The notes beneath the pieces were generated by a model that saw only the letters and a list, made by a program, of their open reading frames with translations, was not told the origin of the DNA and ran no database searches. Source: Pseudomonadota bacterium (GTDB lineage Bacteria; Pseudomonadota; Gammaproteobacteria; Acidiferrobacterales; Acidiferrobacteraceae). Taken from it: a DNA stretch of 64,000 bases. This document shows, piece by piece, positions 45,733-64,000 of the stretch (positions within the stretch are counted from its first letter, which is position 1; each line of letters starts with the position of its first letter). The position numbers were made by a program, and so were the translations under genes. The stretch spans positions 1 through 64,000 of the forward strand of contig JAKAXM010000001.1 in NCBI GenBank assembly GCA_021816625.1, written 5' to 3'.

Positions 45733-46378
45733 CCACGTCTTCAAGCGCTACCCACTCGGGACCGAGGCGCTGAGCGACGTGAGTTTCACGCTGGCCAAAG
45801 GCGAGATGGCGTTCCTGACCGGCCCCTCCGGCGCCGGCAAGAGCACACTGCTAAGGCTCGTGTGCCGGCTGGAGCGGGCAACACGGGGGCGTATCGTGGT
45901 AAACGGCCATGACGTGAGCCGTTTAAGCCCCCGCCGGCTACCCTATCTGCGCCGGGAAATCGGCGTCGTCTTTCAAGACAATCGGCTGTTAAACGACCGT
46001 ACGGTCTTCGACAACGTCGCGCTGCCGCTGTTCGTGGCGGGCATGACCGGCGAGGACGTCCGGAAACGGGTATGGGCGGCGCTCGACAAGGTCGGGCTGC
46101 GCGGCCGGGAACGCGCCTATCCGCTGGCGCTGTCCGGCGGCGAACAACAGCGCGTCGGGATCGCCCGCGCCCTGGTCCATCGGCCGCCGCTGCTCATTGC
46201 CGACGAGCCGACTGGTAACCTGGATGCGAAGCTCTCCGACGACATCATTGATTTGTTCCGGGAATTCAATGATCACGGGGTCACGGTCTTGATCGCGACC
46301 CACGAGCTGCGACACCTGGAACGACTGCGCAAACGCGTCATCCGCCTGGGCCATGGCCATATGGTCGATGCGGCATGA
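45719..46378 (+). CDS. ftsE: Cell-division ABC ATPase FtsE
   Basis: 219 residues. Walker [10 protein letters not shown], signature [10 protein letters not shown], Walker [10 protein letters not shown]. With FtsX it regulates murein hydrolases at the septum. The GTG at 45719 lies within the last codons of ftsY; the upstream open frame is a shadow. Confidence 0.95.
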
Positions 46379-47271
46379 AGGCCTACCTCGGCCGCCACGC
46401 GCAGGTGTTCATGCGCACCCTGGGGGATTTTGCGCGCAGTCCGGCCGCTACGCTGCTCACGGTCGCCATGATCGGCGTCACCCTTATGCTGCCCACGGGC
46501 CTTTATGTGGCGCTCTTGAACCTGCAACGCCTAAGCCATCACTGGCAGCCACGGGGCTCGCTGACCGTCTATCTGAAACGGCATACGGACACGCGGGCTA
46601 CGGCCGCGCGGCTCGACGCGCTCCCGGGAGTGGCCGCCAGCCGCTACATATCCCCTGAACAGGGCCTGCAGGAGTTGCGAACGAGGGCACGGCTGCGCGT
46701 GGCCGTAGGGATCTTACGCCACAACCCGCTGCCGGCGGTCGTCATACTGCGTCCCCGGTCGCAGACGGCCCATGCGGTTGCAGCGCTCGCCCGCCAGGTG
46801 GCGACCTTGCCCGGGGTGGCCCATGTCGAGTCGAACTTCACCTGGTTGCGCCGCCTGGATGCCGTGCTCGCCCTCGGTCATCGCGCCGTAGCCATCCTTG
46901 CGGCCCTGCTGGGGCTCGCCCTTGTCCTCATTCTCGGGAACACGACACGCGCAAGCGTTGCGAGCCGGGCCGCCGAGATATCCGTCGTACGTCTGGTCGG
47001 GGGAACCAACGCCTTCATCCGGCGTCCCTTCCTGTACGCGGGCGCCTTGGCCGGGGGCCTAGGTGCACTCTGCGCCCTCATCTTCCTGGAGCTCGCGCTC
47101 TGGGCCCTCGACGGACCCGTCCAGAGGCTCGATACCCTCTACGGCTCCGCGTACAAACTCGTGGGGCTCGGCGCCGGTCAGGCTCTAGGCCTACTCGCCT
47201 TAGGCGCCGGGCTCGGATGGCTGGGGGCCCGCATCGCGGTCGGACACCAGTTGCGCCGGGATCAGGGCTGA
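46375..47271 (+). CDS. ftsX: Cell-division membrane protein FtsX
   Basis: 298 residues, four membrane spans (about 30-50, 175-195, 225-245, 265-285) with a large periplasmic loop after the first, as usual for FtsX. Overlaps ftsE by four bases (ATGA). Confidence 0.94.
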   Translation: MKAYLGRHAQVFMRTLGDFARSPAATLLTVAMIGVTLMLPTGLYVALLNLQRLSHHWQPRGSLTVYLKRHTDTRATAARLDALPGVAASRYISPEQGLQELRTRARLRVAVGILRHNPLPAVVILRPRSQTAHAVAALARQVATLPGVAHVESNFTWLRRLDAVLALGHRAVAILAALLGLALVLILGNTTRASVASRAAEISVVRLVGGTNAFIRRPFLYAGALAGGLGALCALIFLELALWALDGPVQRLDTLYGSAYKLVGLGAGQALGLLALGAGLGWLGARIAVGHQLRRDQG

Positions 47272-47303
47272 AGATCCGCCACGCGGGGAACTTTCATGGG
47301 GCA

Positions 47304-47330
47304 TTAGCACTCTTACGCCGAGAATGCTAA
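47304..47330 (+). promoter_or_regulatory. CIRCE operator (HrcA site) upstream of rpoH
   Basis: TTAGCACTC (47304-47312), 9-base spacer, GAATGCTAA (47322-47330): the CIRCE inverted repeat TTAGCACTC-N9-GAGTGCTAA with one mismatch. It lies 41 bases before rpoH and overlaps a possible promoter (TTAGCA, N18, TAAGAT). HrcA should bind here and repress rpoH at normal temperature. Confidence 0.85.
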
Positions 47331-47371
47331 GATTCTGTGTAGGTCGATACGGACAGTCGAGGGGGTAAATC

Positions 47372-48241
47372 ATGGCCATGCAAACCTTGCCAGTCGCGGT
47401 CAACATCAGCGCTGAAGGCGGTCTTGCGCATTATGTGCGCCTTGCCAATGCCGCGCCGGTCCTGGACGCGGCCCAGGAACGGGAGTTGGCCCTCGAATAC
47501 CGCGAACACAATAACCTGGAGGCGGCGCGCCTGCTCGTGCTGTCCCAACTGCGCTATGTGATCCGCGTGGCGCGGGCCTTCGCAGGCTATGGATTGCCGC
47601 AGGCCGACTTGATTCAGGAAGGCAATATCGGACTCATGAAGGCCGTGAAGCACTTCGACCCGGCCCACGGGGTGCGGCTCGTCTCGTTCGCCGTCCACTG
47701 GATCCGGGCGGAGATCTACGACTACATCCTGCGCAACTGGCGGATCGTGAAGGTGGCGACGACCAAGGCGCAACGCAAGCTCTTCTTTAATCTGCGTCAA
47801 TCCCGGGCCCGCATCGGCTGGATGAACGAGGGCGAGATATCGAACCTCGCTGCTGACCTCGACGTCCCGCCGGAGACGGTAAAGGAGATGGAATCCCGGA
47901 TGGCGAGCACCGACATCCCCTTCGACGCCCAAGACGAGGCTGACGAAGAGGAGTTTCGGTCATCGCCGGCGGGTTTTCTCCAGGACATGCGCTACAACCC
48001 CGAAAGCCTGCTCACGCATGCCGACGCCGAGGCTTCGCAACAGGACCGCCTGCAAAACGCCCTGGTAGCGCTCGATGGCCGCAGTCAGGATATCATCCGC
48101 AGACGCTGGCTCGCCGCAGACAAACCGACCCTGCACGAGCTTGCGGCCGAATACGGAGTGTCTGCGGAACGTATCCGACAGATCGAGAAAAAGGCCCTGG
48201 ATACCATGAAAGGCGTCCTGCTCGCCCCCGAACCCGCGTAA
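47372..48241 (+). CDS. rpoH: RNA polymerase sigma-32 factor RpoH
   Basis: 289 residues. Region 2 with YGLPQADLIQEGNIGLMKAV, the RpoH box QRKLFFNLR near residue 132 that distinguishes it from other sigma-70 factors, and region 4 helix-turn-helix HELAAEYGVSAERIRQIEKKA. Directs transcription of heat-shock genes, likely including sHSP and perhaps lon and hslVU here. GAGGGGG before the ATG. Carries its own CIRCE operator; follows ftsX as in E. coli. Confidence 0.97.
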   Translation: MAMQTLPVAVNISAEGGLAHYVRLANAAPVLDAAQERELALEYREHNNLEAARLLVLSQLRYVIRVARAFAGYGLPQADLIQEGNIGLMKAVKHFDPAHGVRLVSFAVHWIRAEIYDYILRNWRIVKVATTKAQRKLFFNLRQSRARIGWMNEGEISNLAADLDVPPETVKEMESRMASTDIPFDAQDEADEEEFRSSPAGFLQDMRYNPESLLTHADAEASQQDRLQNALVALDGRSQDIIRRRWLAADKPTLHELAAEYGVSAERIRQIEKKALDTMKGVLLAPEPA

Positions 48242-51201: not shown

Positions 51202-52623
51202 CTAGGGGGGGCAAGGAGCTGGATTGAACGACGTGCTCAAGGCCCATGTAAACGTCTGTGTGTTGCCAGCGGCATCGGTCATACTGACCACGATGGGTGA
51301 GGCCAAGGGTGGTAAGAGCGAGACGTTCCATCCCCCCGCTGCGTCAATATTGATCGGGACTCCATTGGCAACACCGCTTATAACACCCGACAGATCTTGC
51401 CATTGCCCTGCGACCAGTACCGAGGTAACCAGGGGCGCAAACGTCGCCACACAGGCCGCGGGCGGGGTGTTGTCCACGCCTATCGCGGTCTGATAGACCG
51501 CACTCTCCGCAGCCGGATCCGTGGCACTCACGATGAGGCTATTGACCCCATCGCCGAAGGCCTCGGTGTCGATCGTAAAGCCAAAGGCCGGGTCGGCCGT
51601 GAGGGTCTGATAGGCCTGCCCATCCACGGCTACCGTGATCGCCACCGGGAGGGCATAGGGGTCCGTCACCGACCCTGTCACCGTCACGGCTCCGTGGACC
51701 CAATCCGGCAAAGGGGCAACCGATAGGGTGAGCGGCTGTGTGGCGTAGGCCGGCGCCGGCGCCGCACCAAAGAGCGCGGAATCCGATTGGGCTACGGCGC
51801 GATCGTAGGCCAGTAGCGCTAGGGCATCGGGGCCCGCCAAGCTGTCGGGCGAATCCGCAGGCGCGTTGGCCTCAGCTGCCGCCAAGGCGTCCGCGAGACC
51901 CTGGCGGTAGGTATCGGTCGTGAGCGCAGTGCTGCCGAGCATAATGGCTCCAGCGGCACCGGCGCCGTTCAAAAGGCCATCGTTAGCCAGATCATCGGCC
52001 ATGGCTTGCGCGAGCAACTCACTGCCTTGGCCTGCCTCGTGGGCGATGCGCGCCAAGGCCGCCAGAACCAAGCCGTAATGGGCCGTGGCGCCCACGGCCA
52101 GGGGCGTCGGGCCGCCGTCCGGCAGTTCCACGAGGGTCGTAGCTGGGTCAAACCCAAGCCACGCGCTGAAATTGGTCTCGGCCACCGCTAGCGCCGGCCC
52201 CACCCCCAGGCCGCGTTTCTCTAGGAAGGCGACGTCGGCGGCCTGCGCGGTCGATAAGTCCGTGACGGCCACCGTAACGGAGGCACCTGGCGTGTAGGAA
52301 AATATTCCCTGCAAGGTCCCCGAGTTCACGGTTGCGGCGTTTGTGCCGGCGTACGAACCCCCGCGTGCCATAATGACCAGCGGACCTGAGACACCGCTCA
52401 GCGGCAGCGTAAACCGACCATTGTCATCCGTACGCGTGGCTCCGACAGGCCCCTGCGGTCCCGTCACGAGCACGCTCGCGCCGGCCACCGGCGCCCCCCC
52501 TATAACAAAGCCCGTGACAAGACCTGCGGGCAATACAGGCGGCGGGTCCGGGTTGCCAAGTTGGCATGCGCTCAAAAAGAACGGTAGCACCGGAAGCAAG
52601 CGACAAAAAACGCAGGTCTTCAA
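51202..52623 (-). CDS. Large lipoprotein with carboxypeptidase-regulatory-like/Ig-type domains
   Basis: 473 residues: lipobox LSAC near residue 20 then a proline stretch; a carboxypeptidase regulatory-like beta domain (about 30-90, VIGGAPVAGASVLVTGPQG); a helical middle (about 120-300) with Ala-rich segments; Ig-like domains near the C-terminus (VTVTGSVTDPYALPVAITVAVDG). Start is the TTG at 52623, five bases after GGAGG and overlapping the stop of the outer-membrane gene by four. Last gene of the secretion-like operon; likely surface-anchored. Could be an adhesin or a structural partner; not a typical VirB7, which is far shorter. Confidence 0.78.
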   Translation of the reverse strand: MKTCVFCRLLPVLPFFLSACQLGNPDPPPVLPAGLVTGFVIGGAPVAGASVLVTGPQGPVGATRTDDNGRFTLPLSGVSGPLVIMARGGSYAGTNAATVNSGTLQGIFSYTPGASVTVAVTDLSTAQAADVAFLEKRGLGVGPALAVAETNFSAWLGFDPATTLVELPDGGPTPLAVGATAHYGLVLAALARIAHEAGQGSELLAQAMADDLANDGLLNGAGAAGAIMLGSTALTTDTYRQGLADALAAAEANAPADSPDSLAGPDALALLAYDRAVAQSDSALFGAAPAPAYATQPLTLSVAPLPDWVHGAVTVTGSVTDPYALPVAITVAVDGQAYQTLTADPAFGFTIDTEAFGDGVNSLIVSATDPAAESAVYQTAIGVDNTPPAACVATFAPLVTSVLVAGQWQDLSGVISGVANGVPINIDAAGGWNVSLLPPLASPIVVSMTDAAGNTQTFTWALSTSFNPAPCPP

Positions 52624-53174
52624 AATAACCTCCAAAGCACCGTCATGGTGACCGTCGATATGCGCGTAGGAAAACCCGTCTGGCTTGTTATGTTCACAGA
52701 CCAGTTCCGGCTCAAGGGGACCGATAATTCCGCGCCCAAGGTAAGATCGTTTTGGCTGACGGCGGGATAGGCGCCAACACCAAATCCCGCGCCATCGACC
52801 GGCACGCGATCATCAAACCGGTAATGCGATACCCCTATCCCCAGGCCCAACCAGGGGCGTATCCGGTAGCTAAACGGCAGGCGCCGCTGCCACACGAGCA
52901 AGCCCTCAGTTTCGCGGCCCCGCTCGCTCAATCCCCCAGCCCCCGCCCGCGTCGCGAATTGGCCGACGCCAACGTCGAACACCAAGCGGCGGCCAACACC
53001 CGTCGTGCGACTCCATTGTGTCAAGAAGCGCCAGCCGAGGACTGGCTCGGCAGAGCGGGTGCCCGGGACCAATCCGGCATCGACGCCGCCCCCAACAGAG
53101 AGTCCCCAGGCGCAGGCCGGTTTCGGTAACAAGAACAGACAGGCGATACCAAGCAACGCAGACGACGTTCTCAT
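52620..53174 (-). CDS. Outer-membrane beta-barrel protein in the secretion operon
   Basis: 184 residues with signal peptide (ends PACAW) and an eight-strand-like barrel pattern: alternating GLGIGVSHYRF and LTLGAELSVPL, C-terminal LWRLF. Probably a small barrel of the OmpW/PagP-like size. It follows the VirB10-like gene with only two bases between stop and ATG. Barrel partners are not part of standard type IV systems. Confidence 0.72.
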   Translation of the reverse strand: MRTSSALLGIACLFLLPKPACAWGLSVGGGVDAGLVPGTRSAEPVLGWRFLTQWSRTTGVGRRLVFDVGVGQFATRAGAGGLSERGRETEGLLVWQRRLPFSYRIRPWLGLGIGVSHYRFDDRVPVDGAGFGVGAYPAVSQNDLTLGAELSVPLSRNWSVNITSQTGFPTRISTVTMTVLWRLF

Positions 53175-53176
53175 GG

Positions 53177-53902
53177 TTATGTGCCTTTTTGGGTTTGGAC
53201 ATAGGCGTTTTGCGCCGGCACGTACAAGATTCGGCGCGGCAGATGCCAGCGGCTTGCGGCATTTACAGTGCTGGTTCCGACCTGCCCCAAGGCTGCCGAT
53301 GTCACCGAGGATTGCGCACTCAAGGCCCCGATAGCGGCATCGACCCCTTCCACGACGGATCGCGCAAAGGCGGCGACTACGGTTTTGCGCCGATGACCCA
53401 GCGCATAGCCGCGCAGTCCCAGGCTGCGGTCACGGGCAAAGACCACGGCGCTAAAGGGGATGTGCAGGCCGTTTGGGAATACGGCCTCGCTTATCCGAAA
53501 CTGCACATGCCCGGAACGTACGCCGTCTTCATGGGCGAGCAGGCGGGTACCCGTTGGCAAGACGCCATAGCGGCCGTGAACGGCCCTGCGCACATGAAAA
53601 ACTACCAAGGCGCGGTCTTGGTCGGTCAGTTCGTGGCGCAAAGTCACCGCTACCCACGAGCCGGGCCGCAGGCCCAAGACCGCCGGCACAGACAGCGCAA
53701 GCGGCGGACGCGCTGCCACCTTGGCGACCCAAAACGGCAGAATGGGGACCTGTTTTCCTTGCAGGTGCCGTATGCGCACCGGGGCGGTGGCGGCACCGCC
53801 CATCACACCCAATATCCGCGCGAGAAGCGAAGCGGGCCGCGGTGCCTGGTGCGCGAGGCCCCGGACCACAGGACCCACCGGCGGCGGTGCGACGGCTACC
53901 AT
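53177..53902 (-). CDS. VirB10/TraB-like type IV secretion component (short)
   Basis: 241 residues. The beta-rich C-terminal core of VirB10 is present: LRPGSWVAVTLRHEL, a GVLPTGTRLLAHE turn, and FPNGLHIPFSAVVFARD. It lacks the N-terminal membrane anchor and proline-rich region of full-length VirB10 (usually about 400 residues). ATG at 53902 overlaps the VirB9-like stop by seven bases; the frame upstream is open. In a conventional system this protein forms the outer-membrane core complex with VirB7 and VirB9. Confidence 0.68.
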   Translation of the reverse strand: MVAVAPPPVGPVVRGLAHQAPRPASLLARILGVMGGAATAPVRIRHLQGKQVPILPFWVAKVAARPPLALSVPAVLGLRPGSWVAVTLRHELTDQDRALVVFHVRRAVHGRYGVLPTGTRLLAHEDGVRSGHVQFRISEAVFPNGLHIPFSAVVFARDRSLGLRGYALGHRRKTVVAAFARSVVEGVDAAIGALSAQSSVTSAALGQVGTSTVNAASRWHLPRRILYVPAQNAYVQTQKGT

Positions 53903-54654
53903 GAAACGCGCACCAGGCCCGCGATCGTAGTCACCAACAAATGCCAGCGCGCAACGGGCTGCGACGGCGGCGTAATGGCGAGGGCGCAATTCTGGTGACC
54001 GGCGACAGGCGCGGTACAGGCAAGCCGCCCCGGAACACGCCGCCACTTGTGGTGGCCACGATAGAGTTGGACGCCCTCACACAAAGGGCCGCCGGTTCCT
54101 GCGCTCGAGAGTGCGAAACCCAATATCGCAAGCTTAGGCATGACCAGGAATCGCCGGACCCAAACGCGCACGGCTTTGCGGCCGGCATGGGCCTGCCGTT
54201 CCTTTCTGATCCGGGAACGCCGTATGGGCGCAAACGCCGCGTACGCCCACGCGCGGCGCCAGGGCGATAACCGCACGCGCGGTGGGGCGGGTGGCGCTGG
54301 CGGTCGCGGCGGCACGGTGAAGACCACATCACTCGTATAATCACCGCCAAGCCTCGTCGTACACACGAGAAGCGAGACCGCATAGGGGCCAACGCCCAGA
54401 AACATATTTCCGCAGTAGCGATGATGCGCGCCGCGCACGGCGGTAATGAGGATACCGGATAGCCCCAGATGGACCGCCTGGAAGTATGGGTTTGTGATCG
54501 CAAAATGCAAAGACCCCGCCAATGCGCGCGGGAAGAGCAAACGTAAACCGAGATTGGGGACAACAGCTGCCGTCACGGCTGTATAGGGCGCTAGCACCAC
54601 CACGCGCTCGGTTGGTACAAATGGTCGCAAAGGGGACGGAAGCGGCGGTATCAT
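53896..54654 (-). CDS. VirB9/TraK-position protein of the secretion operon
   Basis: 252 residues without a clear signal peptide. An N-terminal beta-rich domain (about 10-115), a Pro-rich linker (PPRPPAPPAPP), and a basic C-terminal domain with CEGVQLYRG. Assigned to VirB9/TraK by its place between TraE-like and TraB-like genes and by the two-domain plan; direct sequence similarity is weak by eye. ATG overlaps the preceding stop by four bases. Confidence 0.5.
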   Translation of the reverse strand: MIPPLPSPLRPFVPTERVVVLAPYTAVTAAVVPNLGLRLLFPRALAGSLHFAITNPYFQAVHLGLSGILITAVRGAHHRYCGNMFLGVGPYAVSLLVCTTRLGGDYTSDVVFTVPPRPPAPPAPPRVRLSPWRRAWAYAAFAPIRRSRIRKERQAHAGRKAVRVWVRRFLVMPKLAILGFALSSAGTGGPLCEGVQLYRGHHKWRRVPGRLACTAPVAGHQNCALAITPPSQPVARWHLLVTTIAGLVRVSW

Positions 54655-55223
54655 AACTGGCGAATAGCCACGATTTCGATGCCGGCGGTATTGCGCATGC
54701 TTCGCGCGACGCTGCGTTCCGTAAGCAAAAGAGAGAACCCCTGGCGACGCGTCTTGCCATCGGGCAGCACAAAATGGATCACCCCGGATAGACGTACAAG
54801 CCATACTCGTCCGGACCTGCGCAAGACGCGCGGCCGCCGGGAGCCATCATCGAAACGGACCCAGGAGCGCAGCCCAGCTAAGCGCACTCGCGCCAGATAG
54901 GCCGTTTTCTTCAGGGCAGCGACCGTGGCCTCACGCAGAGGATCGGCCATCATATCGAGGGCCTGCACGTAATCGGGAACTATGGTGGCGCTGTTGGCAC
55001 TCAAATAATCGCGGACAAAGCGCATGGAGGACGCAAGGATATCGCGATGCGAGCGGCGGATTGCGCTCAACCACTCCATGCGGCCGAGGATCGTGCCGCT
55101 ACGGCTTACCGCGACGACTGGCGGCGTGCGCCACAGCAGCACAGCTGCGAGTACAACAAAGGCGAGCGCCGCACCCCCGAAAAATAACCACCCAAGGAAC
55201 GCGTAACGGGCCAGGCGCTGCAT
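54651..55223 (-). CDS. VirB8/TraE-like inner-membrane component
   Basis: 190 residues: one N-terminal span (YAFLGWLFFGGAALAFVVLAA) then a periplasmic domain (about 50-190) similar in size and plan to TraE of the F plasmid. Start ATG at 55223 with AGGG seven bases upstream; the frame begins earlier within the VirB6-like gene. It would nucleate the inner-membrane complex. Confidence 0.65.
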   Translation of the reverse strand: MQRLARYAFLGWLFFGGAALAFVVLAAVLLWRTPPVVAVSRSGTILGRMEWLSAIRRSHRDILASSMRFVRDYLSANSATIVPDYVQALDMMADPLREATVAALKKTAYLARVRLAGLRSWVRFDDGSRRPRVLRRSGRVWLVRLSGVIHFVLPDGKTRRQGFSLLLTERSVARSMRNTAGIEIVAIRQL

Positions 55224-55257
55224 CAACAGACCCTGGGGGCCGTGTGCGCCGCGCCTA

Positions 55258-56343
55258 TCAGCGCCGCGAAAAATCGTCGGAATCATCCGATAGCTCCGGC
55301 CCATCGAAATCGGGCTTTAGATAATTCGTACGGGGGACGCGGCCGTCGCGTGAAACGGGCCAGTAATCAGGGTCGCTCGGTATATGGAGGACGGGCATGC
55401 GCCGTGGCTTTACCGATAAGACATCGGTGTCGCGATCGCGGTACCAGCGCACGGCGGCAACGCTTGCGCTGGTCGTGGCATGATCCAGGATGGCAGCCCC
55501 CTGGGTAACTCGCCCGAGGTAGGGCTCAACGAGACTGCGGCCCGCCCCGGCGTTCTCGACCAGCACCGCCGTTACGTAAGGCGCCGCAATCAGAACGGCC
55601 GCCAAGACGAGGTTCAAGATCGTAAACAGCATATGGGCATAGACGGTCATGTAATCGCTTCGCCCCAATAATCCCTGGAGGGTCGCTACCGCATGGGTGA
55701 AGATCGGCGCAAAAACCGCAAGCAATAAGGCCTGGACGATGGGCCATAGGACAAAAAATCCCATCAGCTTTGCAAAACCGCGTAGCAGGGAAAAATTGCG
55801 GCTCACGGCAAGCGGCAACGCGATGAGGCCATAGAGAAAACTGAACTCATAGCCTATGGCCTGGGCGATCCGCAGTAGCACCTCGAGGAAGGTCGTCACG
55901 ACGAGGGTCGTGTAATAGATGAACACGGTGGTCAAACGCAGCGGCAGGGCGTTGACCTCCTTGATGGTGGCCCACAGGCCGCTCGGACCGTGATTGGCAA
56001 CCGTGAGCAAGGCGGCCATCTGCGTGGCAACGAGCGACAGGGAGCCTATCCTCGCCATCGCCCCATAAAGGGCATTCAGATAATGCACGATGAGGTCGCC
56101 GGCGGAGAAATAGATCAATAGGCCGACACCCCAGGCGGCGACGTCGCGTAGCGCCCGAGCCAATTGACCGCTACCGGCGATGGCGTCGAGCTGGGCCTCA
56201 AGAAGCCTCGTGTATAAGGCCACTACGAAAAGCGAAGGCGTCACCGTGCGCATCATGAGATCCGCAACGGGCCTACCCTCCCGAAAGACCCCACGCGGGG
56301 ACAGGTAGCGCAGCAAGTCGGCCACGAAGTACAGGCCGGTCAT
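55258..56343 (-). CDS. VirB6/TrbL-like polytopic membrane protein
   Basis: 361 residues with five or six hydrophobic spans (for example MFTILNLVLAAVLIAAPYVTAVL and VGLLIYFSAGDLIV). Such polytopic proteins form the inner-membrane channel. Short hydrophilic C-terminus (RDTDVLSVKPRR onward). ATG overlaps the VirB5-like stop by four bases. Confidence 0.72.
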   Translation of the reverse strand: MTGLYFVADLLRYLSPRGVFREGRPVADLMMRTVTPSLFVVALYTRLLEAQLDAIAGSGQLARALRDVAAWGVGLLIYFSAGDLIVHYLNALYGAMARIGSLSLVATQMAALLTVANHGPSGLWATIKEVNALPLRLTTVFIYYTTLVVTTFLEVLLRIAQAIGYEFSFLYGLIALPLAVSRNFSLLRGFAKLMGFFVLWPIVQALLLAVFAPIFTHAVATLQGLLGRSDYMTVYAHMLFTILNLVLAAVLIAAPYVTAVLVENAGAGRSLVEPYLGRVTQGAAILDHATTSASVAAVRWYRDRDTDVLSVKPRRMPVLHIPSDPDYWPVSRDGRVPRTNYLKPDFDGPELSDDSDDFSRR

Positions 56344-56963
56344 GGGGTGCCTGCAAAGGCCCGGTAGAGATGCGCCGACTCCGCAGGCAGCCGCCGGGCG
56401 TTATGACGCTCGGCCGCCTGACGGATATGGCGGCGGGCCGCGGCGCGGGCGTTTTGGGCGGCCAGCGCGGCGAGAGTCACGGTGGACCGGGCCGTGATAT
56501 CACGGCTGCTACGCGCACCCAGGTCGAGGGCCGAGCGACGAGCGTCATGGCGTACGCCGCGAGCCAGCCAATCCAAACGCCGTAGCCGCTCGATCCGGCG
56601 CGCTTGCTGATGATAGTAACCGTCGAGGTCGGACCAGCGGCGGCCGGTGCTACGCGCGGCTTCGAGCCACCGCCCCATCGACGCCGGGACACCACGGGGC
56701 ACAGGCAGTGCCGCATAGCGCGCGAGCCCTCGGCTCGCAACGACACGGATATCTTGCTGTTCGGTCTGCAAAGTGGCCTCCACGGCCTGCATCCTGCGAA
56801 CCTCGCTTAAGACCCCGTGGTAGAGCCCTACGACCTGATCAAACAGGCTGATCAGCTCGGCATGGACGGGGGGATCGAAGGTGATATCCCCGACTCCCAG
56901 AAAGGCGTGCGCGCTCGCTCCCCCGAGCAGCCACAGCAGGCCGCCAAACACATAGCGTCTCAT
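56340..56963 (-). CDS. VirB5/TrbJ-like periplasmic helical protein
   Basis: 207 residues with a signal peptide (ends ASAHA). The mature protein is almost entirely helical with frequent arginine; about residues 50-80 form a coiled coil (VRRMQAVEATLQTEQQD). Helical bundle and place between VirB4 and VirB6 match VirB5-type minor pilins. ATG overlaps the VirB4-like stop by four bases. Confidence 0.62.
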   Translation of the reverse strand: MRRYVFGGLLWLLGGASAHAFLGVGDITFDPPVHAELISLFDQVVGLYHGVLSEVRRMQAVEATLQTEQQDIRVVASRGLARYAALPVPRGVPASMGRWLEAARSTGRRWSDLDGYYHQQARRIERLRRLDWLARGVRHDARRSALDLGARSSRDITARSTVTLAALAAQNARAAARRHIRQAAERHNARRLPAESAHLYRAFAGTP

Positions 56964-59275
56964 GGGGTTGCCCCCTTAATCCGCGCCAGACGCAGGAGTG
57001 GATCGCGGATATCGCGGCCGACCGCCTCCTTGGCGGCGAGACCCGTAGGCGTCGTATCGGCGAGCGTTAGCAGTGGCTCTGGGAAGGTAAGCCGCAGGGC
57101 GTAATAATCAGGCCCCACGGACCGTACCGCCGGCCGCCACGGCAGGTTTAAGGGAAACGGGAGATGCTTCCATATATGAAGCGCACGCGCCGGCATGCCG
57201 ATACGGCTTGCGATATCTTCCCAGCCATCGTTCCTGTAGAGGAGGGATCGCATGGGCATGGAATTCACGATCTCCTTTTCCATGACATCGATCTCCGCAA
57301 GACCCTGGGTGACGATGTCGATGGCCGCCGCCTCCTTGCGGCCCATGCGGGCGATCTCGGACACGAGTCGTGACATGACCTGCGGCGCATGCGCTACGAA
57401 ACGATGGATCTCATCGAGCAGGACGCGCGCCGGGGTGCGGTGCGCGAAGGCCAGGTTCAGGAAACGCAGACACAAAAACACGAGATAGAACGTGAGGAGT
57501 TTGGGGCTTGCCCGATCAACCTCTTTGAGATCGACGCCGCATATACCTGTACTGATCTGAACGTTGTCGTGGCTTGCAAATAGGCGGCCTTCCGGGGTAT
57601 CGAGAAAGCTATGGAGATTGGCCGCCATCCGCCGCGCGGCGTCCGCCTGCTCGGGGCTTGCGCTGCCCGACGCTTCTAGCGTGCCCAGAAAGTCGACGAG
57701 GCCTGGGTTGGGCCCTATGTCAACATCGTAGAGTCGCTGCAGGGCCGCAGCGCCGGCCGCCATTTCATGAAAGTCCAGAACCGTGCGGCCGTCCGTCAGG
57801 ATAAAGGCAAGGATGTTCAAGGTACCGGAGGCCAGTAGCGGGTCGAGACCCGCAGCGCCTACGGAGCGGGGCGGCAGGGGATTGACAGCCGCCGTACTTG
57901 GGTCGAGGCAGGTGTAGATCCCGCCCAGACCCTCCACCACCCAGCGATACGTCGCTCCGATCTCGAGCACATACCAGTCGATACCAAACGGGTAGGTCTC
58001 GACGATGGTCGCGACCTTGTCGACCCCCTTGCCGGCTCCGGTCATGGCCACGGTAAAGCCGTGCGCGACAACCTGGTGCGAGTAATCAAACGATACGGCC
58101 TGGCGCGCGAGGCCCAGACGCAGGGACTCGGGGTAGGGCGATCCGGAACGGAACGTCTGCCAGGGAGCCATGGCTGCGATCTGCGCGGAATGGTCAGGAC
58201 GCCACAAGGGTGACCGGTAGCCTTGCCCCGGCTGGGAGGCCCGGAAAAACGGCAACTGGATAAACTGATCATCGCGAGGCCGTCCGCCCTGGCCCCGCAA
58301 CAACTCACACAGGCGATCTACCTCGGCATCGGGAACGTCTGTGAGATCCCCGCATACCATGTAGGCATTGCGATGGACCTGCCAATCGTTGTCGGACACG
58401 GCCTGCCGGAAACCCTGCATCTCCCGCAACATGGCGACCTGGCGCTCGCGCCCCTTATGGGCCATGGCCCCCTGGGCAAGGCGGTCGGCCCGCTCCGAGG
58501 CGCGCAAGGCCTGTTCGGTATCGGCCGCCATGACGATCTGGCTTATGTGTAGGGGCATGGCAAGCGAGGCGATCGGCAATACCCAGGCCGGGTACACATC
58601 GGGATAGAGGTGCAGATACCAAACGCGCAGGGTACGGCGTTCTATGCTGAGGTTGCCCTGGGCTTGCGTGGGTGGCACCGCAATGAGCTGCTCGGCCAGG
58701 GACAGCCACGGGTCGACCGCCGAGAGCGCGGGGCTTCGATCGTAGCTTTTCTGGATAAGGTGGACGTAGTCAAGAGCGCTTGCGATCCGACCCCCGGGCA
58801 AAAGACTGGCAAGATGCGATGCGAGCTCCTCGAGGTCTTGGGCACGCAAGCTCTGAGCCCCTAGCGCCGGACGCGGTATTGCGCGGCGCGCGCCCGGCAA
58901 GCGTCCCACAATCAAGGCGACCGTGTTCACAAGAAAGCGGGGGGCCAGATGCTCGGCGATAGCCACCCGCATCGCCGCCGCAAAAGCGCTGGGACGGGAG
59001 GCGTTTTTGTAGTGCGCGAGATACGCGTGCGCCGGATCGTCGCAAGGCTCGCGCCATAAATGGCACTCGACCCAATAATCGCGCGGCAGCCGCCGCAATA
59101 GCTCTTCAGCAAGGGACCACTGGTGGGCGCGGCCCGCCGCATCCTCGAACTCCGCGTCGACGCCCGTCCACAGGATGGCGATCGAACACGCCCCATCGCC
59201 GTGGGCAATGACATGTTCCCCAAGCGTGTGGGACCACGTATAGACGTCACAGTAGCGGCGCGCCCCTAGAGCCAT
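56960..59275 (-). CDS. VirB4/TraC-like secretion ATPase
   Basis: 771 residues, soluble. The N-terminal half (about 1-390) holds the VirB4-like oligomerisation region; Walker A VAMTGAGKGVDK at about 409-420 and Walker B RVLLDEIHRF at about 617-626. In Walker A the Ser/Thr after the Lys is Gly, as in some VirD4-type coupling proteins. AGGAGG precedes the ATG at 59275, which overlaps the upstream stop by ten bases. The only energy-providing protein in the operon. Confidence 0.86.
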   Translation of the reverse strand: MALGARRYCDVYTWSHTLGEHVIAHGDGACSIAILWTGVDAEFEDAAGRAHQWSLAEELLRRLPRDYWVECHLWREPCDDPAHAYLAHYKNASRPSAFAAAMRVAIAEHLAPRFLVNTVALIVGRLPGARRAIPRPALGAQSLRAQDLEELASHLASLLPGGRIASALDYVHLIQKSYDRSPALSAVDPWLSLAEQLIAVPPTQAQGNLSIERRTLRVWYLHLYPDVYPAWVLPIASLAMPLHISQIVMAADTEQALRASERADRLAQGAMAHKGRERQVAMLREMQGFRQAVSDNDWQVHRNAYMVCGDLTDVPDAEVDRLCELLRGQGGRPRDDQFIQLPFFRASQPGQGYRSPLWRPDHSAQIAAMAPWQTFRSGSPYPESLRLGLARQAVSFDYSHQVVAHGFTVAMTGAGKGVDKVATIVETYPFGIDWYVLEIGATYRWVVEGLGGIYTCLDPSTAAVNPLPPRSVGAAGLDPLLASGTLNILAFILTDGRTVLDFHEMAAGAAALQRLYDVDIGPNPGLVDFLGTLEASGSASPEQADAARRMAANLHSFLDTPEGRLFASHDNVQISTGICGVDLKEVDRASPKLLTFYLVFLCLRFLNLAFAHRTPARVLLDEIHRFVAHAPQVMSRLVSEIARMGRKEAAAIDIVTQGLAEIDVMEKEIVNSMPMRSLLYRNDGWEDIASRIGMPARALHIWKHLPFPLNLPWRPAVRSVGPDYYALRLTFPEPLLTLADTTPTGLAAKEAVGRDIRDPLLRLARIKGATP

Positions 59276-59535
59276 GATGCCTCCTGCGCTATGAGGTTGC
59301 CGTGGAGGGAACTAATCCAATAGGTGCGCGCAAAGACGATGTCGTCGCCGAGAAACAGGAAAACAATTCCGATCGGCAAGGCGGCAAGCGCCACCGCCAG
59401 GGCAACGATCGAGGCGAGTCCGGGCAGCACGACTGACGACAATATTCCGGTGGCCGTGACAAGACTTGCCATCGTCGCACCAAGCGGAAGCCCTAATATG
59501 CGCACCGGTGCGAGGCGCTTATTAAAGGCGGTCAT
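59266..59535 (-). CDS. VirB3/TraL-like small membrane protein
   Basis: 89 residues, two spans (about 23-42 and 45-65: VALAVALAALPIGIVFLFLGD). Typical of VirB3/TraL/TrbD proteins that sit beside VirB4. ATG at 59535 overlaps the pilin-like stop by four bases. Confidence 0.68.
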   Translation of the reverse strand: MTAFNKRLAPVRILGLPLGATMASLVTATGILSSVVLPGLASIVALAVALAALPIGIVFLFLGDDIVFARTYWISSLHGNLIAQEASWL

Positions 59536-59840
59536 GAGCCGATCACGAGGGCCGCGATGCCATAGGCGCTCGCTGCCAATATGAGACCTATGACGCTTCC
59601 AACGACATAACTTTTTCCGCGTTCTCCCTGGCCGCTCGCAAAATAGCCAGCGCCGATCAGGATCCCCATGATGGCCAGTATGCTGACGATCAAAGAGATA
59701 ATGTCAGTTATGGCATGCGCGCGCTCCTCGATAGTGATCCGTAAATCAGAACCTTGGGCATAACCAGGAAGGCGCATCATGGCAGACGGACGGCTTTTGT
59801 CTGTGGCGATTTGCGGACTAAAGACCTTGGCATAGATCAC
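59532..59840 (-). CDS. VirB2/TraA-like pilin candidate
   Basis: Up to 102 residues, start uncertain (GTG at 59840 or ATG at 59780). Two hydrophobic segments (IISLIVSILAIMGILIGAGYF and VGSVIGLILAASAYGIAALVIG) separated by a short basic loop GERGKSYV, the plan of VirB2/TraA pilins. First gene of the secretion operon. Confidence 0.62.
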   Translation of the reverse strand: MIYAKVFSPQIATDKSRPSAMMRLPGYAQGSDLRITIEERAHAITDIISLIVSILAIMGILIGAGYFASGQGERGKSYVVGSVIGLILAASAYGIAALVIGS

Positions 59841-60051: not shown

Positions 60052-60903
60052 CTATAGGGGTTTTATGGGTATGGTCGGACGTCCACTGCGCACGGCGGGC
60101 CCCGGGGCCCCAGAGGCGCCAACCCAGGCCTGACCATAGACGACCTCGTAGGTCAAAGGCAGGCGGCCATCACGCCGGAAGGTCTCGTAGGAGTCGATGA
60201 AGCGGCGATAGCGCGCCTTGCCGGTCAGTCCGGCAAAGCGCGCCTGGTGCGCGTTATGGGCGCCGATTCTCTTTAGATCGCGCAAGGCCTTGCCGGGGGC
60301 ATCATAGGTCAGCGTATAGCGCTCGACATCTAAAACAGGATCCGCAAAACCCGCGGCCAGGAGCAAATCTCCCAGATCGTGCATATCGACAAAGTTGTGG
60401 ACATGAGGCCTATCGTCCACCTGCGCCCAAGCGGCACGAAGCTCAGTCAGGGTGTCGGGACCGAAGGTCGAGAACATTAGTACACCATGGGGACGCAAAA
60501 CGCGGCGGAACTCAGCGAATGCGCGTACGGGATCCATCCATTGAATGGCCAGATTCGAGTAAAGGCAGTCGACGCTGCCGGCAGGCAGTGGCAGGGTCTG
60601 CCCATCAGATGCCCACAAAAGGACGGGGCGCCAAAATCCCCGCCGGCTGGTGGCGCGCTTGACCATGCCAGGGGAAATGTCGCAGGCCCATATACGACTA
60701 TGCCGGAAATGTTGACGCAGGGCCGGCAGCGCGTAGCCGGTACCCGTCCCTACGTCGAGCACGGTAGCGGGTGCGATGCGCAGCCACTGGAATCGACTCA
60801 CGAGCTCATCTGCGACCGTGCGCTGTAAGACCGCGGCCTCGTCGTAGTCGGCCGCGGCCCGATCGAAACTATGCCGGATCGAGGTCGGACTTAAGTCAAT
60901 CAC
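60052..60903 (-). CDS. bioC: Malonyl-ACP O-methyltransferase BioC
   Basis: 283 residues, SAM-dependent; methylates malonyl-ACP to start the pimeloyl chain for biotin. SAM motif VLDVGTGTGYALP and the SFDRAAADYDEAAVLQ opening. GTG start at 60903 overlaps the bioH stop by eight bases; the frame is open upstream. C-terminal tail GASGAPGPAVRSGRP is longer than usual. Confidence 0.93.
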   Translation of the reverse strand: MIDLSPTSIRHSFDRAAADYDEAAVLQRTVADELVSRFQWLRIAPATVLDVGTGTGYALPALRQHFRHSRIWACDISPGMVKRATSRRGFWRPVLLWASDGQTLPLPAGSVDCLYSNLAIQWMDPVRAFAEFRRVLRPHGVLMFSTFGPDTLTELRAAWAQVDDRPHVHNFVDMHDLGDLLLAAGFADPVLDVERYTLTYDAPGKALRDLKRIGAHNAHQARFAGLTGKARYRRFIDSYETFRRDGRLPLTYEVVYGQAWVGASGAPGPAVRSGRPTIPIKPL

Positions 60904-61615
60904 GCAGGAACTCCCGGATGGCCTGTGTGCAGGTGTCGGCCGCCGACAAAAACGGGGCGTGGCCGCGACCGGCCTCCACACGGCGGGCCTGGGGGACGTG
61001 GGCCGCAAGCCACCGGCTGGCGCCATCCGGCACGATCGTGTCGCCGGCGCCATGTAAGACCAGGGTGGGCACCAGCAACGCGGAGACCTGCGGCCGCAAA
61101 TCGGTGGTCCGAAGAACAGCGAGTCCTTCGGCGAGCGCCGCGGGGCTTGCGGCGCCGCCGGTACGGATGTCCGCGGTCAGGGCACGGATCTGGTCGCGGC
61201 CGCGCGGGCCTGCCTGCAGGGCCAAGAAACGGGCCACAGTGGCGGAAGGATCGCAGGTGAGATCCGCGGCGAAACCCGTAAAGACGGAGTCGCTTACGCC
61301 AAACGGCCAATCGGGCCTTTGCGTGAAGCACGGGGTCGCTGCGACCAGGATCAGATGGCTTACCGCGTCCGGATAGGTCGCCGCCAATGTGAGCGCTACG
61401 AGCCCCCCCAGAGACCAGCCGAGCCACGCATGGCGCCCGGGATGGGCGGCGACAAGGGCTGCGGCCAGGGCAGCTGGGTCGAGGGCCCCGGGGGCGTAGG
61501 GCGCGCCGCCGTGGCCGGGCAAATCGAGTGACGACACCGCAAATGGTAAGGCGGCCTCAAGGGGGGCAAAGACGCGGCGATTCAGGCCCCAACCATGCAG
61601 AAGGTAGAGCGTCAC
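60896..61615 (-). CDS. bioH: Pimeloyl-ACP methyl ester esterase BioH
   Basis: 239 residues, alpha/beta hydrolase. LLHGWGLN, nucleophile GWSLGGLVAL (Ser), Asp in HGAGDTIVP and His in AGRGHAPF. Removes the methyl group once the pimeloyl chain is complete. GTG start at 61615 overlaps the bioF stop by four bases. Confidence 0.95.
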   Translation of the reverse strand: MTLYLLHGWGLNRRVFAPLEAALPFAVSSLDLPGHGGAPYAPGALDPAALAAALVAAHPGRHAWLGWSLGGLVALTLAATYPDAVSHLILVAATPCFTQRPDWPFGVSDSVFTGFAADLTCDPSATVARFLALQAGPRGRDQIRALTADIRTGGAASPAALAEGLAVLRTTDLRPQVSALLVPTLVLHGAGDTIVPDGASRWLAAHVPQARRVEAGRGHAPFLSAADTCTQAIREFLRD

Positions 61616-62781
61616 AGGCGGTCCTTGGTGTAGGTTTCCAAGGAAGCGAGGAGCCGCGCCACATCGTCCGCGGAATGGGCCGCAGACAGCGCCACGCGCA
61701 GCCGCGCGGCCCCGACCGGCACGGTCGGGGGGCGTACCGCCAAGACGAGGAGACCCTGGCGGCGCAGAAATTCGCTGGCCCTAAGCGCCGCGTGGGCGTC
61801 CCCCATGACCACGGCCTGAATCGGTGTGCACGACGGCAAGACGGTAAGGCCCACGGCCTGCGCGCCCGCACGAAACTCCTCGATGCGCTGACGAAGCGCT
61901 GTGCGCCGGTGCTCTTCGGCGCGGATGATGGCGAGGCTTGCCTGAGCCGCGGCGGCGACCGCGGGCGGCAGGGCGGTCGTATAGATATAAGGCCGACCGA
62001 TCTGTATCAGGGCCGCCACGACCTCGGCGCTCGCTGCGACGAAGGCCCCGAAGACCCCGAATGCCTTGCCGAGCGTGCCCATATGCACAAGGCGCGGCAT
62101 AAACGCGAGGCCCTGGGCGGCCGCACTGCCTCGGCCGCCAGGACCCACTACCCCAAAGGCATGGGCATCGTCGACGATCACACCGGCGCCGTGGTCCGCG
62201 GCGAGCGCGATCAGACCCGGGATGTCGGCCATGTCGCCATCCATGCTAAAGACCCCATCGGTGGCAATGAGCCCCCCCGGGGCCGCGCCCTCCAGGGCAT
62301 CCCGCAGGCCCGCGAGATCCCGATAACGACGCCGCTGCGCCTGCGCGAGACGCACGGCGTCCAATAAAGAAGCGTGATTGCGTCTATCCTCCCAGACAAG
62401 GGTATGGCGTGTCGCAAGTGTTGTGATGAGCGCGAGGTTGGCCATATAACCTGTGGAAAACAACAAGGCCTTGGGACTGCCGACAAAATCGGCGAGCTGC
62501 TCCTCGAGCTCGTGATGGACTCGGGTGTGGCCGCCCAAGAGATGCGCCGCGCCGGCGCCCACACCATAACGCCGCGCACCGGCACAAAAGGCCTCGTGCA
62601 CGCGCGGGTCGTTGGCAAGGCCCAGGTAATCATTACTGGAAAAACTGAGCAGGGTCTGGCCATCCACCCGCACCCACGGACCGGTCGGCGACTCGCGAAT
62701 CTCGCGCTGGCGCCACAGGCCCTGCCGCTCCCGCGCCCGCAGGAGCGGCCGCAGCATCGCGGCAAAAGGATCATCTGGCAT
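61612..62781 (-). CDS. bioF: 8-amino-7-oxononanoate synthase BioF
   Basis: 389 residues, PLP-dependent; condenses pimeloyl-ACP or -CoA with alanine. SNDYLGLA, SGYMANLA-like FSTGYMANLAL, DDAHAFG and the PLP Lys in MGTLGKAFGVFGAF. The ATG at 62781 has GAGG nine bases upstream; the longer open frame is unsupported. First gene of bioF-bioH-bioC; bioB and bioD are not in this window. Confidence 0.95.
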   Translation of the reverse strand: MPDDPFAAMLRPLLRARERQGLWRQREIRESPTGPWVRVDGQTLLSFSSNDYLGLANDPRVHEAFCAGARRYGVGAGAAHLLGGHTRVHHELEEQLADFVGSPKALLFSTGYMANLALITTLATRHTLVWEDRRNHASLLDAVRLAQAQRRRYRDLAGLRDALEGAAPGGLIATDGVFSMDGDMADIPGLIALAADHGAGVIVDDAHAFGVVGPGGRGSAAAQGLAFMPRLVHMGTLGKAFGVFGAFVAASAEVVAALIQIGRPYIYTTALPPAVAAAAQASLAIIRAEEHRRTALRQRIEEFRAGAQAVGLTVLPSCTPIQAVVMGDAHAALRASEFLRRQGLLVLAVRPPTVPVGAARLRVALSAAHSADDVARLLASLETYTKDRL

Positions 62782-62860
62782 GGGGCCCAGCCTCGCTTGG
62801 AAGCCGCCAAGCATACGTGGGAAGCGCGCCTGGATAAAGGCGGGGGCCGACTTTCGGTCG

Positions 62861-62889
62861 TTGGGGCTTAAGTCCCGACCGGCTATGGT
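62861..62889 (+). promoter_or_regulatory. Candidate promoter of the small outer-membrane gene
   Basis: TTGGGG (62861-62866), 17 bases, TATGGT (62884-62889), 29 bases before the ATG of the downstream gene. Confidence 0.35.
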
Positions 62890-62917
62890 GGGCGATCGCC
62901 CGCAAGGAGGATTTGCT

Positions 62918-63568
62918 ATGAGGACGCACCTGGCCACGGCTGTGCTCGCAACGAGCGCCCTGGTGCCTGCCTGGGCTGGTATCGCGCTCAGCGCAAGCGG
63001 CGGCACGCTGGGCCTCGGGCTTGCATTGAGCATCCCCGTGATCCCGCGTACCTTTTACGTCCGTCTGCTCGGCAACGGCGGCCACCTGACACGACACATG
63101 ACCACCGACGGGCTGAACTATCGCGCTCGGGCGCATTTTCGTAACGCCGCCTTATTGGGAGACTATTACCCCTTCGGTGGCGTATTCCACGTAAGCGGGG
63201 GAGTCTACTACGACGACAACCGGGTGGATCTCGCGGCCACATCGGTAAACGGAACCTACACCATCAATGGCATGACGGTGCCCGCGTCTGCGGTGGGCCC
63301 TGTGACCGGCACCGTGACCTACGCACGCTTCGCGCCTTATCTCGGCCTCGGTTTCACCAACGACGCCCAACCCGGGCCAGGCGTCGCCGTAGGCCTCGAT
63401 CTGGGCGTGATGTGGGACCGTCCCACAACGACCTTGTATGCCCCGGGTGCTGCTGGCAATCCGACGCTGTCGGCAGACTTGGCGGCGACCCGCGCCCAGA
63501 TCGAACACCAGGCCAATCGTCTCAAGGCTTACCCGGTCGCTTCCCTGAGCCTCGGTTACCGGTTCTAG
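62918..63568 (+). CDS. Small outer-membrane beta-barrel protein
   Basis: 216 residues with a signal peptide (MRTHLATAVLATSALVPAWAG). Alternating strands (FHVSGGVYYDDNRVDL, FAPYLGLGF, GVAVGLDLGVMW) and a C-terminal Phe (SLGYRF) indicate a small barrel, resembling OmpW/OmpA-fold proteins. Strong AGGAGG at the ATG. Function unknown. Confidence 0.85.
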   Translation: MRTHLATAVLATSALVPAWAGIALSASGGTLGLGLALSIPVIPRTFYVRLLGNGGHLTRHMTTDGLNYRARAHFRNAALLGDYYPFGGVFHVSGGVYYDDNRVDLAATSVNGTYTINGMTVPASAVGPVTGTVTYARFAPYLGLGFTNDAQPGPGVAVGLDLGVMWDRPTTTLYAPGAAGNPTLSADLAATRAQIEHQANRLKAYPVASLSLGYRF

Positions 63569-63575
63569 CGATTGG

Positions 63576-64000
63576 CTAGGGCGCCGTGGGGGCGTTTGCC
63601 AGGCGCTCCTCGACAAACTGGGCAAGCGGGGGACTCAAGGGACACGACTGGGCCTTACGCCAGGCCTTACGGGCACGAGCGGCGTGACCGGCCTTCATGT
63701 CCGCAACTCCAAGCCCGACCCATAAGGCCCCATCGCGAGGGAAACGGGCAAGACCCGCTTCGTAGGCCGAGATCGCCCGGGTCCCGCGGCCGGCCGCAAC
63801 CCACGCCGCGGCGAGCAAGGCCCAATAAGACGGCTTGTCGGCAGCCGCCGCGGCAATAGGCGCCAGGGCGGCCGCGGCCGCGGCTGGTCGCCCCTGCCTT
63901 AAATCGAGCTGCGCCCACAATATCACGGCCGACACCGACCCCGGGTGTGCCTGCAAGGCCGGACGCAGTGCCGCCCGGGCCGATGCGAGCCGCCCCCCTT
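63576..64000 (-). CDS. Tetratricopeptide-repeat protein, C-terminal part
   Basis: At least 141 codons, open to the window edge. Repeated 34-residue helical units (ALLAAAWVAAGRGTRAISAYEAGLARFPRDGALWVGLGVADMKAG) fit TPR consensus positions (W4, G8, A20, P32-like). Convergent with the outer-membrane gene. The N-terminus and any other domains are outside the window. Confidence 0.8.
   Translation of the reverse strand, partial: GGRLASARAALRPALQAHPGSVSAVILWAQLDLRQGRPAAAAAALAPIAAAAADKPSYWALLAAAWVAAGRGTRAISAYEAGLARFPRDGALWVGLGVADMKAGHAARARKAWRKAQSCPLSPPLAQFVEERLANAPTAP

Follow-up and report, generated by a model that had tools for sequence, protein, structure and literature searches.

A 2025 review lists Ptl, Brucella VirB, ComB and Trw as type IV secretion systems (T4SSs) without VirD4 (PMC12857230). 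The ComB system of Helicobacter pylori has a VirB2-4/6-10 set and is devoid of VirB11 and VirD4 (PMC12857230), and Bartonella Trw is likewise a T4SS locus without a coupling protein (T4CP), for which a pilus function was proposed (PMC2883598). The archaeal Ced/Ted systems are domesticated conjugation machinery (PMC9905601); they differ from the system described here in being archaeal, in working in the import direction, in having no relaxase and in having fewer components. In Patescibacteria a chromosomal T4SS is found clade-wide, with the T4CP usually encoded far from virB4 (PMC12102498); that system differs in its machinery of the monoderm type and in a mostly absent relaxase. A block homologous to that of the present report, VirB2-B3-B4-B5-B6-B8-B9-B10-barrel-lipoprotein, is carried by the circular 107-kb plasmid of Tenderia electrophaga (CP013100) and by related gammaproteobacterial elements. 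On the Tenderia plasmid the T4SS lies at 65-79 kb (L033) and its genes are all annotated 'hypothetical'; PLSDB describes the plasmid as 'mobilizable', with a MOBP relaxase and no MPF type. No report of the ten-gene block was found in the literature searched, and a paper on the mobile elements of Acidiferrobacter is silent on type IV secretion, conjugation and relaxases (PMC8889020).

The window, i.e. the whole stretch of DNA analysed, covers positions 1 to 64,000 of contig C26 in a 2.19-Mb genome of the Acidiferrobacteraceae (G000; 52 contigs, 99% complete). A sequence-only reading had described ten minus-strand genes at 51202-59840 between ordinary flanking genes. All ten open reading frames are present there, tightly overlapping, with bioC, bioH and bioF on one side and ftsX and rpoH on the other. 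The features are as follows.

60052..63033, minus strand: bioC, bioH and bioF, upstream flank, neighbours kept in many relatives, outside the system
59532..59840, minus strand: VirB2-like pilin (Pfam TrbC 1e-4; conserved part from 59780)
59266..59535, minus strand: VirB3-like small membrane protein (position; one relative matches VirB3 weakly, E 0.011)
56960..59275, minus strand: VirB4/TraC ATPase, 771 aa (NCBIfam TraC-F 2.6e-13; motif alignment)
56340..56963, minus strand: VirB5-like helical secreted protein with signal peptide (position, alignment)
55258..56343, minus strand: VirB6-like polytopic membrane protein (position, hydropathy, alignment)
54651..55286, minus strand: VirB8 (AlphaFold pLDDT 85; Foldseek top matches VirB8/DotI/TrwG)
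53896..54654, minus strand: VirB9, no signal peptide (AlphaFold pLDDT 86; Foldseek X. citri VirB9, 1.3e-8)
53177..53902, minus strand: VirB10 C-terminal domain protein, no signal peptide (Pfam TrbI 2.2e-6; CagY 0.0025)
52620..53174, minus strand: putative outer-membrane beta-barrel (signal peptide, terminal aromatic residue, alignment)
51202..52623, minus strand: surface lipoprotein, lipobox LSAC (CarboxypepD_reg-like and Ig-like domains, Pfam, sub-cutoff; alignment)
46375..48241, plus strand: ftsX and rpoH, downstream flank, neighbours kept in relatives, outside the system

The overlaps measure 4 bp for pilin/VirB3, VirB4/VirB5, VirB5/VirB6, VirB8/VirB9 and barrel/lipoprotein, 10 bp for VirB3/VirB4, 7 bp for VirB9/VirB10 and, taking the VirB8 start at 55286, 29 bp for VirB6/VirB8; the VirB10/barrel junction is a 2-bp gap without overlap. 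The true starts of VirB8, VirB9, VirB10 and the lipoprotein lie later than those of the longest open reading frames. A programmed frameshift fusing VirB8, VirB9 and VirB10 was considered and dropped, since the overlaps fit plain coupled translation and no slippery site was seen at the junctions read. As had been stated of it, the block contains no relaxase, VirD4, VirB11 or integrase gene, and no integrase gene was found beside it either. There are no tRNA or Rfam matches within the 64-kb window, and a promoter scan was uninformative. The bioC-virB2 interval contains no common extra gene in the copies examined, with GNAT or bioD in some. At the window edge a TPR-like protein (63576-63998) is encoded near a secretin-like gene just outside (G000:C26:65509-66441); the two may be part of a cluster related to type IV pili or type II secretion.

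That the block is a T4SS core is confirmed by profiles for VirB4, VirB10 and VirB2 and by predicted folds for VirB8 and VirB9. The Pfam scores for TrbC (VirB2) and TrbI (VirB10) are below the curated cutoffs. VirB3, VirB5 and VirB6 were not firmly matched by profile searches, and with this weak profile support their putative identities rest on position, size and hydropathy. VirB4 has the Walker A motif GAGKG (near 58020-58045) and the Walker B motif LLDEIH. A GKG ending recalls VirD4/TraG coupling proteins; it replaces GKT/S in nearly all members of the subfamily, including the plasmid-borne ones, and was for this reason rejected as a sign of inactivity. VirB4 gave a weak alignment with F TraC by hhalign; kinship to F-type (MPF_F) systems was tried and set aside, the hhalign comparisons with single F TraE and TraK sequences being insignificant. 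VirB11 is absent from F-type systems. Its lack, which had been listed with the other genes missing from the block, is unexceptional, as H. pylori ComB is likewise without it (PMC12857230).

VirB8 and VirB9 were folded because they gave no useful sequence match, and structure prediction (AlphaFold, Foldseek) confirmed both folds. The VirB8 model matches R388 VirB8, DotI, TrwG and VirB8 structures, with a target TM of up to 0.78. The VirB9 model consists of two beta domains; its best match is the VirB9 chain of the X. citri core complex, and its N-terminal domain fits TrwF/VirB9 with an rmsd of 2.4 over 103 columns. When the PDB was searched by sequence, neither the barrel nor VirB4, VirB8 or VirB9 matched a T4SS entry. 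VirB9 and VirB10 are without a signal peptide in every member of the Acidiferrobacteraceae examined (53177-54654; loci L051-L066), their starts being fixed by the conserved gene overlaps, and relatives outside the family keep these signal peptides. This is difficult to reconcile with a functional outer-membrane complex. Each full-length VirB9 of the family contains four cysteines, which the mature part of the 45-49% identical relatives does not have. In the VirB9 model each cysteine pair, 80/97 and 212/223, is on or adjoining neighbouring strands, which suggests an oxidising compartment. The pilin is 72-88% identical within the family. That of the window has no signal peptide, which is present in all 16 family relatives (N-termini compared; 59777-59840); its absence in this genome is ascribed to local decay or an assembly fault.

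The ten-gene order recurs in 16 relatives beside bioFHC, rpoH-ftsX or both, one of the copies being cut by a contig end inside VirB9. For all ten genes dN/dS is between 0.03 and 0.29 in the close pairs tested, with the lowest values for the pilin and VirB4, and by this measure all ten are under purifying selection. The same order in 16 further genomes, together with these values, means that the block is not a product of chance. VirB4 is present as a single copy in 17 of 18 family genomes (12 of the 13 of good quality), the T4SS-negative member being G384. The family VirB4s form one well-supported clade with unresolved deeper branching. Relatives of the T4SS were detected in 8 of 369 genomes in an even sample of the class, the window's genome included, and in a 398-genome sample of the phylum only in the window's own genome. 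The ten-gene block is a vertically inherited chromosomal locus and not a mobile element; that it is no conjugative or integrating element had already been proposed from the sequence, and the missing integrase and the same locus in 16 relatives bear this out. Decay of an old conjugative element into a relic would fit the signal peptides missing from the window's pilin, VirB9 and VirB10 and the broken lipoprotein gene of one relative, but it is a very improbable explanation, given that the single-copy VirB4s are free of internal stops and dN/dS is low in all ten genes.

Relatives that are about 45-49% identical in VirB4 are found on plasmid-like DNA with an adjoining coupling protein. Five plasmid- or element-like relatives (two copies in G022, and those of G206, G036 and the Tenderia plasmid) have a VirD4-like gene just upstream, and most of the VirD4-bearing plasmid-like relatives also carry partition genes (ParAB). 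These five make it probable that the T4SS type originated as a machine for DNA transfer. The Tenderia-type elements differ from the chromosomal block in their plasmid or element setting, in having their own VirD4/TraG-like T4CP just upstream and in keeping the signal peptides of VirB9 and VirB10. The T4SS type went unrecognised by standard typing on the Tenderia plasmid, and some plasmids classed as 'mobilizable' may carry a transfer machine of their own. No relatives of VirB4 or of the T4CP were found in viral contigs. Distant chromosomal copies of the T4SS are present in two small genomes, G006 (L031-L032) and G003 (L029-L030); in G006 a 998-aa relative of the lipoprotein and a 2500-aa exported-looking protein are encoded nearby.

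The barrel is conserved in plasmid-borne relatives; the Tenderia plasmid copy has the barrel and the lipoprotein, and some other copies have the barrel. The idea that these two proteins may replace the outer-membrane part did not stand as a peculiarity of the locus, since homologues also occur with plasmid-borne relatives equipped with a coupling protein of their own. The barrel and the lipoprotein thus belong to the T4SS type. In one relative the lipoprotein frame is interrupted (L063:7428-8831; 247 aa versus about 470), and a Nitrosomonadales contig (L008:12707-15617) carries two tandem lipoprotein genes and a small extra open reading frame between VirB10 and the barrel.

The operon had been called relaxase-less. 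This is correct for the block and incorrect for the genome, which encodes a relaxase of the MOBQ family and a coupling protein of the TrwB type at another conserved chromosomal site. The two genes are divergent, span G000:C50:39655-42041, outside the window, and are as follows.

G000:C50:39655-41268: VirD4/TrwB-type coupling protein (TrwB_AAD_bind 3.7e-12, above cutoff)
G000:C50:41346-42041: MOBQ relaxase (MobA_MobL 5.7e-23)

An absence of a T4CP was at first supported by negative results with a plasmid T4CP query and with TraG-D_C; it was overturned by TrwB_AAD_bind after the MobA_MobL search had led to the second locus, and the earlier negatives were failures of sensitivity. TrwB_AAD_bind is over the cutoff in all five T4CPs scanned. 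The MobA/MobL search matched in G000:C50, G207, G371, G369 and G381, and reading of the same site added G377 and G380, so that the divergent pair is syntenic in 7 genomes of two genera; this count excludes the T4SS-negative G384, whose contig ends inside mpl, and G383, whose contig ends inside polA. Named by sequence character, the neighbours of the pair are an AsmA-like and a methyltransferase gene to one side and acetolactate-synthase-like, dsbA-like, mpl, rnd, engB and polA genes to the other. In the one-contig genome G369 both loci are on one replicon, about 0.4 Mb apart if circular. The T4CP has a Walker A motif (GGIGSGKTTS), a Walker B motif (DEYQ) and one N-terminal hydrophobic stretch near residues 80-105, its dN/dS is 0.13-0.17, and it is distant kin (hhalign E 6e-9) to the T4CP beside the plasmid-borne T4SS. 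The relaxase is short and resembles 4ht4, a nicking enzyme of solved structure (1.8e-21); Tyr24 and His120/122/130/132 are invariant in 7/7, and a dN/dS of about 0.4 in most pairs indicates fast evolution. Searches of the window's genome with the named families detected neither a further coupling protein nor a relaxase of the MOBP or MOBF type. The region between the two genes contains a CCCGATA/TATCGGG inverted repeat or part of it (L097:915-963, with the same place in L090, L092 and L095), which is not distinctive; this conserved stretch is a candidate oriT or regulatory site. In mob modules of small plasmids, such as Aquicella lusitana plasmid 5 (LR699118) and pRA2, a relaxase is likewise divergent to a T4CP of the same subfamily. 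Plasmid 5, with the same divergent layout and a Ti-type relaxase, is the closest plasmid arrangement found. These modules differ from the chromosomal pair in being plasmid-borne, in their much longer relaxase and in residing on plasmids without a T4SS.

The two loci together hold the protein classes of conjugation apart from VirB11 and VirB1, neither of which was seen at the two loci. The explanation proposed here, which is given an even chance of being right, is a chromosomally fixed two-locus DNA-export system of the conjugation type. The block would be the mating-pair-formation half of a conjugation-type T4SS (pilus, envelope channel and outer-membrane adhesion proteins), captured into the chromosome of an ancestor of the Acidiferrobacteraceae and inherited vertically since, and the VirD4/TrwB-type T4CP and MOBQ relaxase would be the DNA-processing half, fixed at the second site. 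The relaxase would nick a chromosomal origin, and its complex with the DNA would be docked by the coupling protein on the channel of VirB4 and VirB10. A pilus of VirB2 and VirB5, together with the lipoprotein and the barrel, would hold a neighbouring cell, to which chromosomal DNA or a co-resident plasmid would be passed. In this reading the system is a T4SS of a sequence type barely recognised by existing profiles and domesticated together with a separate mob module.

The tie between the T4SS and the T4CP/MOBQ locus is one of co-occurrence only. Because this co-occurrence is without a negative control, the main rival remains an adhesive or biofilm pilus, in which the T4SS keeps only pilus building, as was suggested for Bartonella Trw, and the T4CP/MOBQ pair is left over, without any tie to it, from a mobilizable plasmid that had integrated. 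The operon is without a coupling protein, and a T4SS that lacks one can act as a builder of pili (PMC2883598, PMC12857230). Constraint on the pilin equals or is second to that on VirB4, the operon includes a large Ig-like lipoprotein, and neither a cognate T4CP nor any of the three relaxase families looked for was found in G003 and G006, which hold the two other chromosomal copies. However, an intact T4CP under constraint, and a relaxase that keeps all its catalytic residues in 7/7 genomes of two genera, would be odd for a dead remnant; moreover, unlike Bartonella Trw, the locus has one conserved pilin gene in place of variable copies, and the genome has a T4CP. A function as a pilus alone is considered rather unlikely. 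Still less probable is a protein secretion system, in which the T4SS and the distant T4CP deliver effectors or toxins to other bacteria. Related machines are known that need a T4CP for the export of proteins, and the second locus supplies a T4CP; yet this T4CP is paired with a relaxase, no effector or immunity genes were seen beside either locus, and the free-living acidophilic lifestyle offers no particular host.

ComB hands DNA to ComEC. An import of DNA resembling that by H. pylori ComB or archaeal Ced would agree with a subunit set near that of ComB and a locus without VirB11 and VirD4 (PMC12857230), and archaea do have domesticated import T4SSs (PMC9905601). However, none of the 11 family genomes tested has ComEC, which the same search did find in 4 other Gammaproteobacteria and in 10 of the 14 genomes used as controls. 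DprA gave weak, partial and mostly sub-cutoff matches in family genomes, one short match in G377 passing the cutoff, and is apparently lacking from the family. The missing ComEC and the apparently missing DprA make ComB-like uptake highly unlikely, as do the VirB5-like protein and the T4CP and relaxase encoded elsewhere in the chromosome.

Returning to the two-locus export system, a more far-reaching form of it is regarded as doubtful: the family, lacking ComEC and apparently DprA, would keep domesticated two-locus conjugation as a core-genome trait for chromosomal exchange, with an acid-adapted outer-membrane complex and periplasmic subunits without a classical signal peptide. Nearly all members of this acid-loving family (Acidiferrobacter and kin) carry the T4SS as a fixed part of the chromosome, and, with ComEC lacking, it can be tested directly how the Acidiferrobacteraceae recombine. 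As a rule conjugation belongs to mobile elements; if the proposal is true, it would in this bacterial lineage have turned into a housekeeping trait, as happened with Ced/Ted in archaea.
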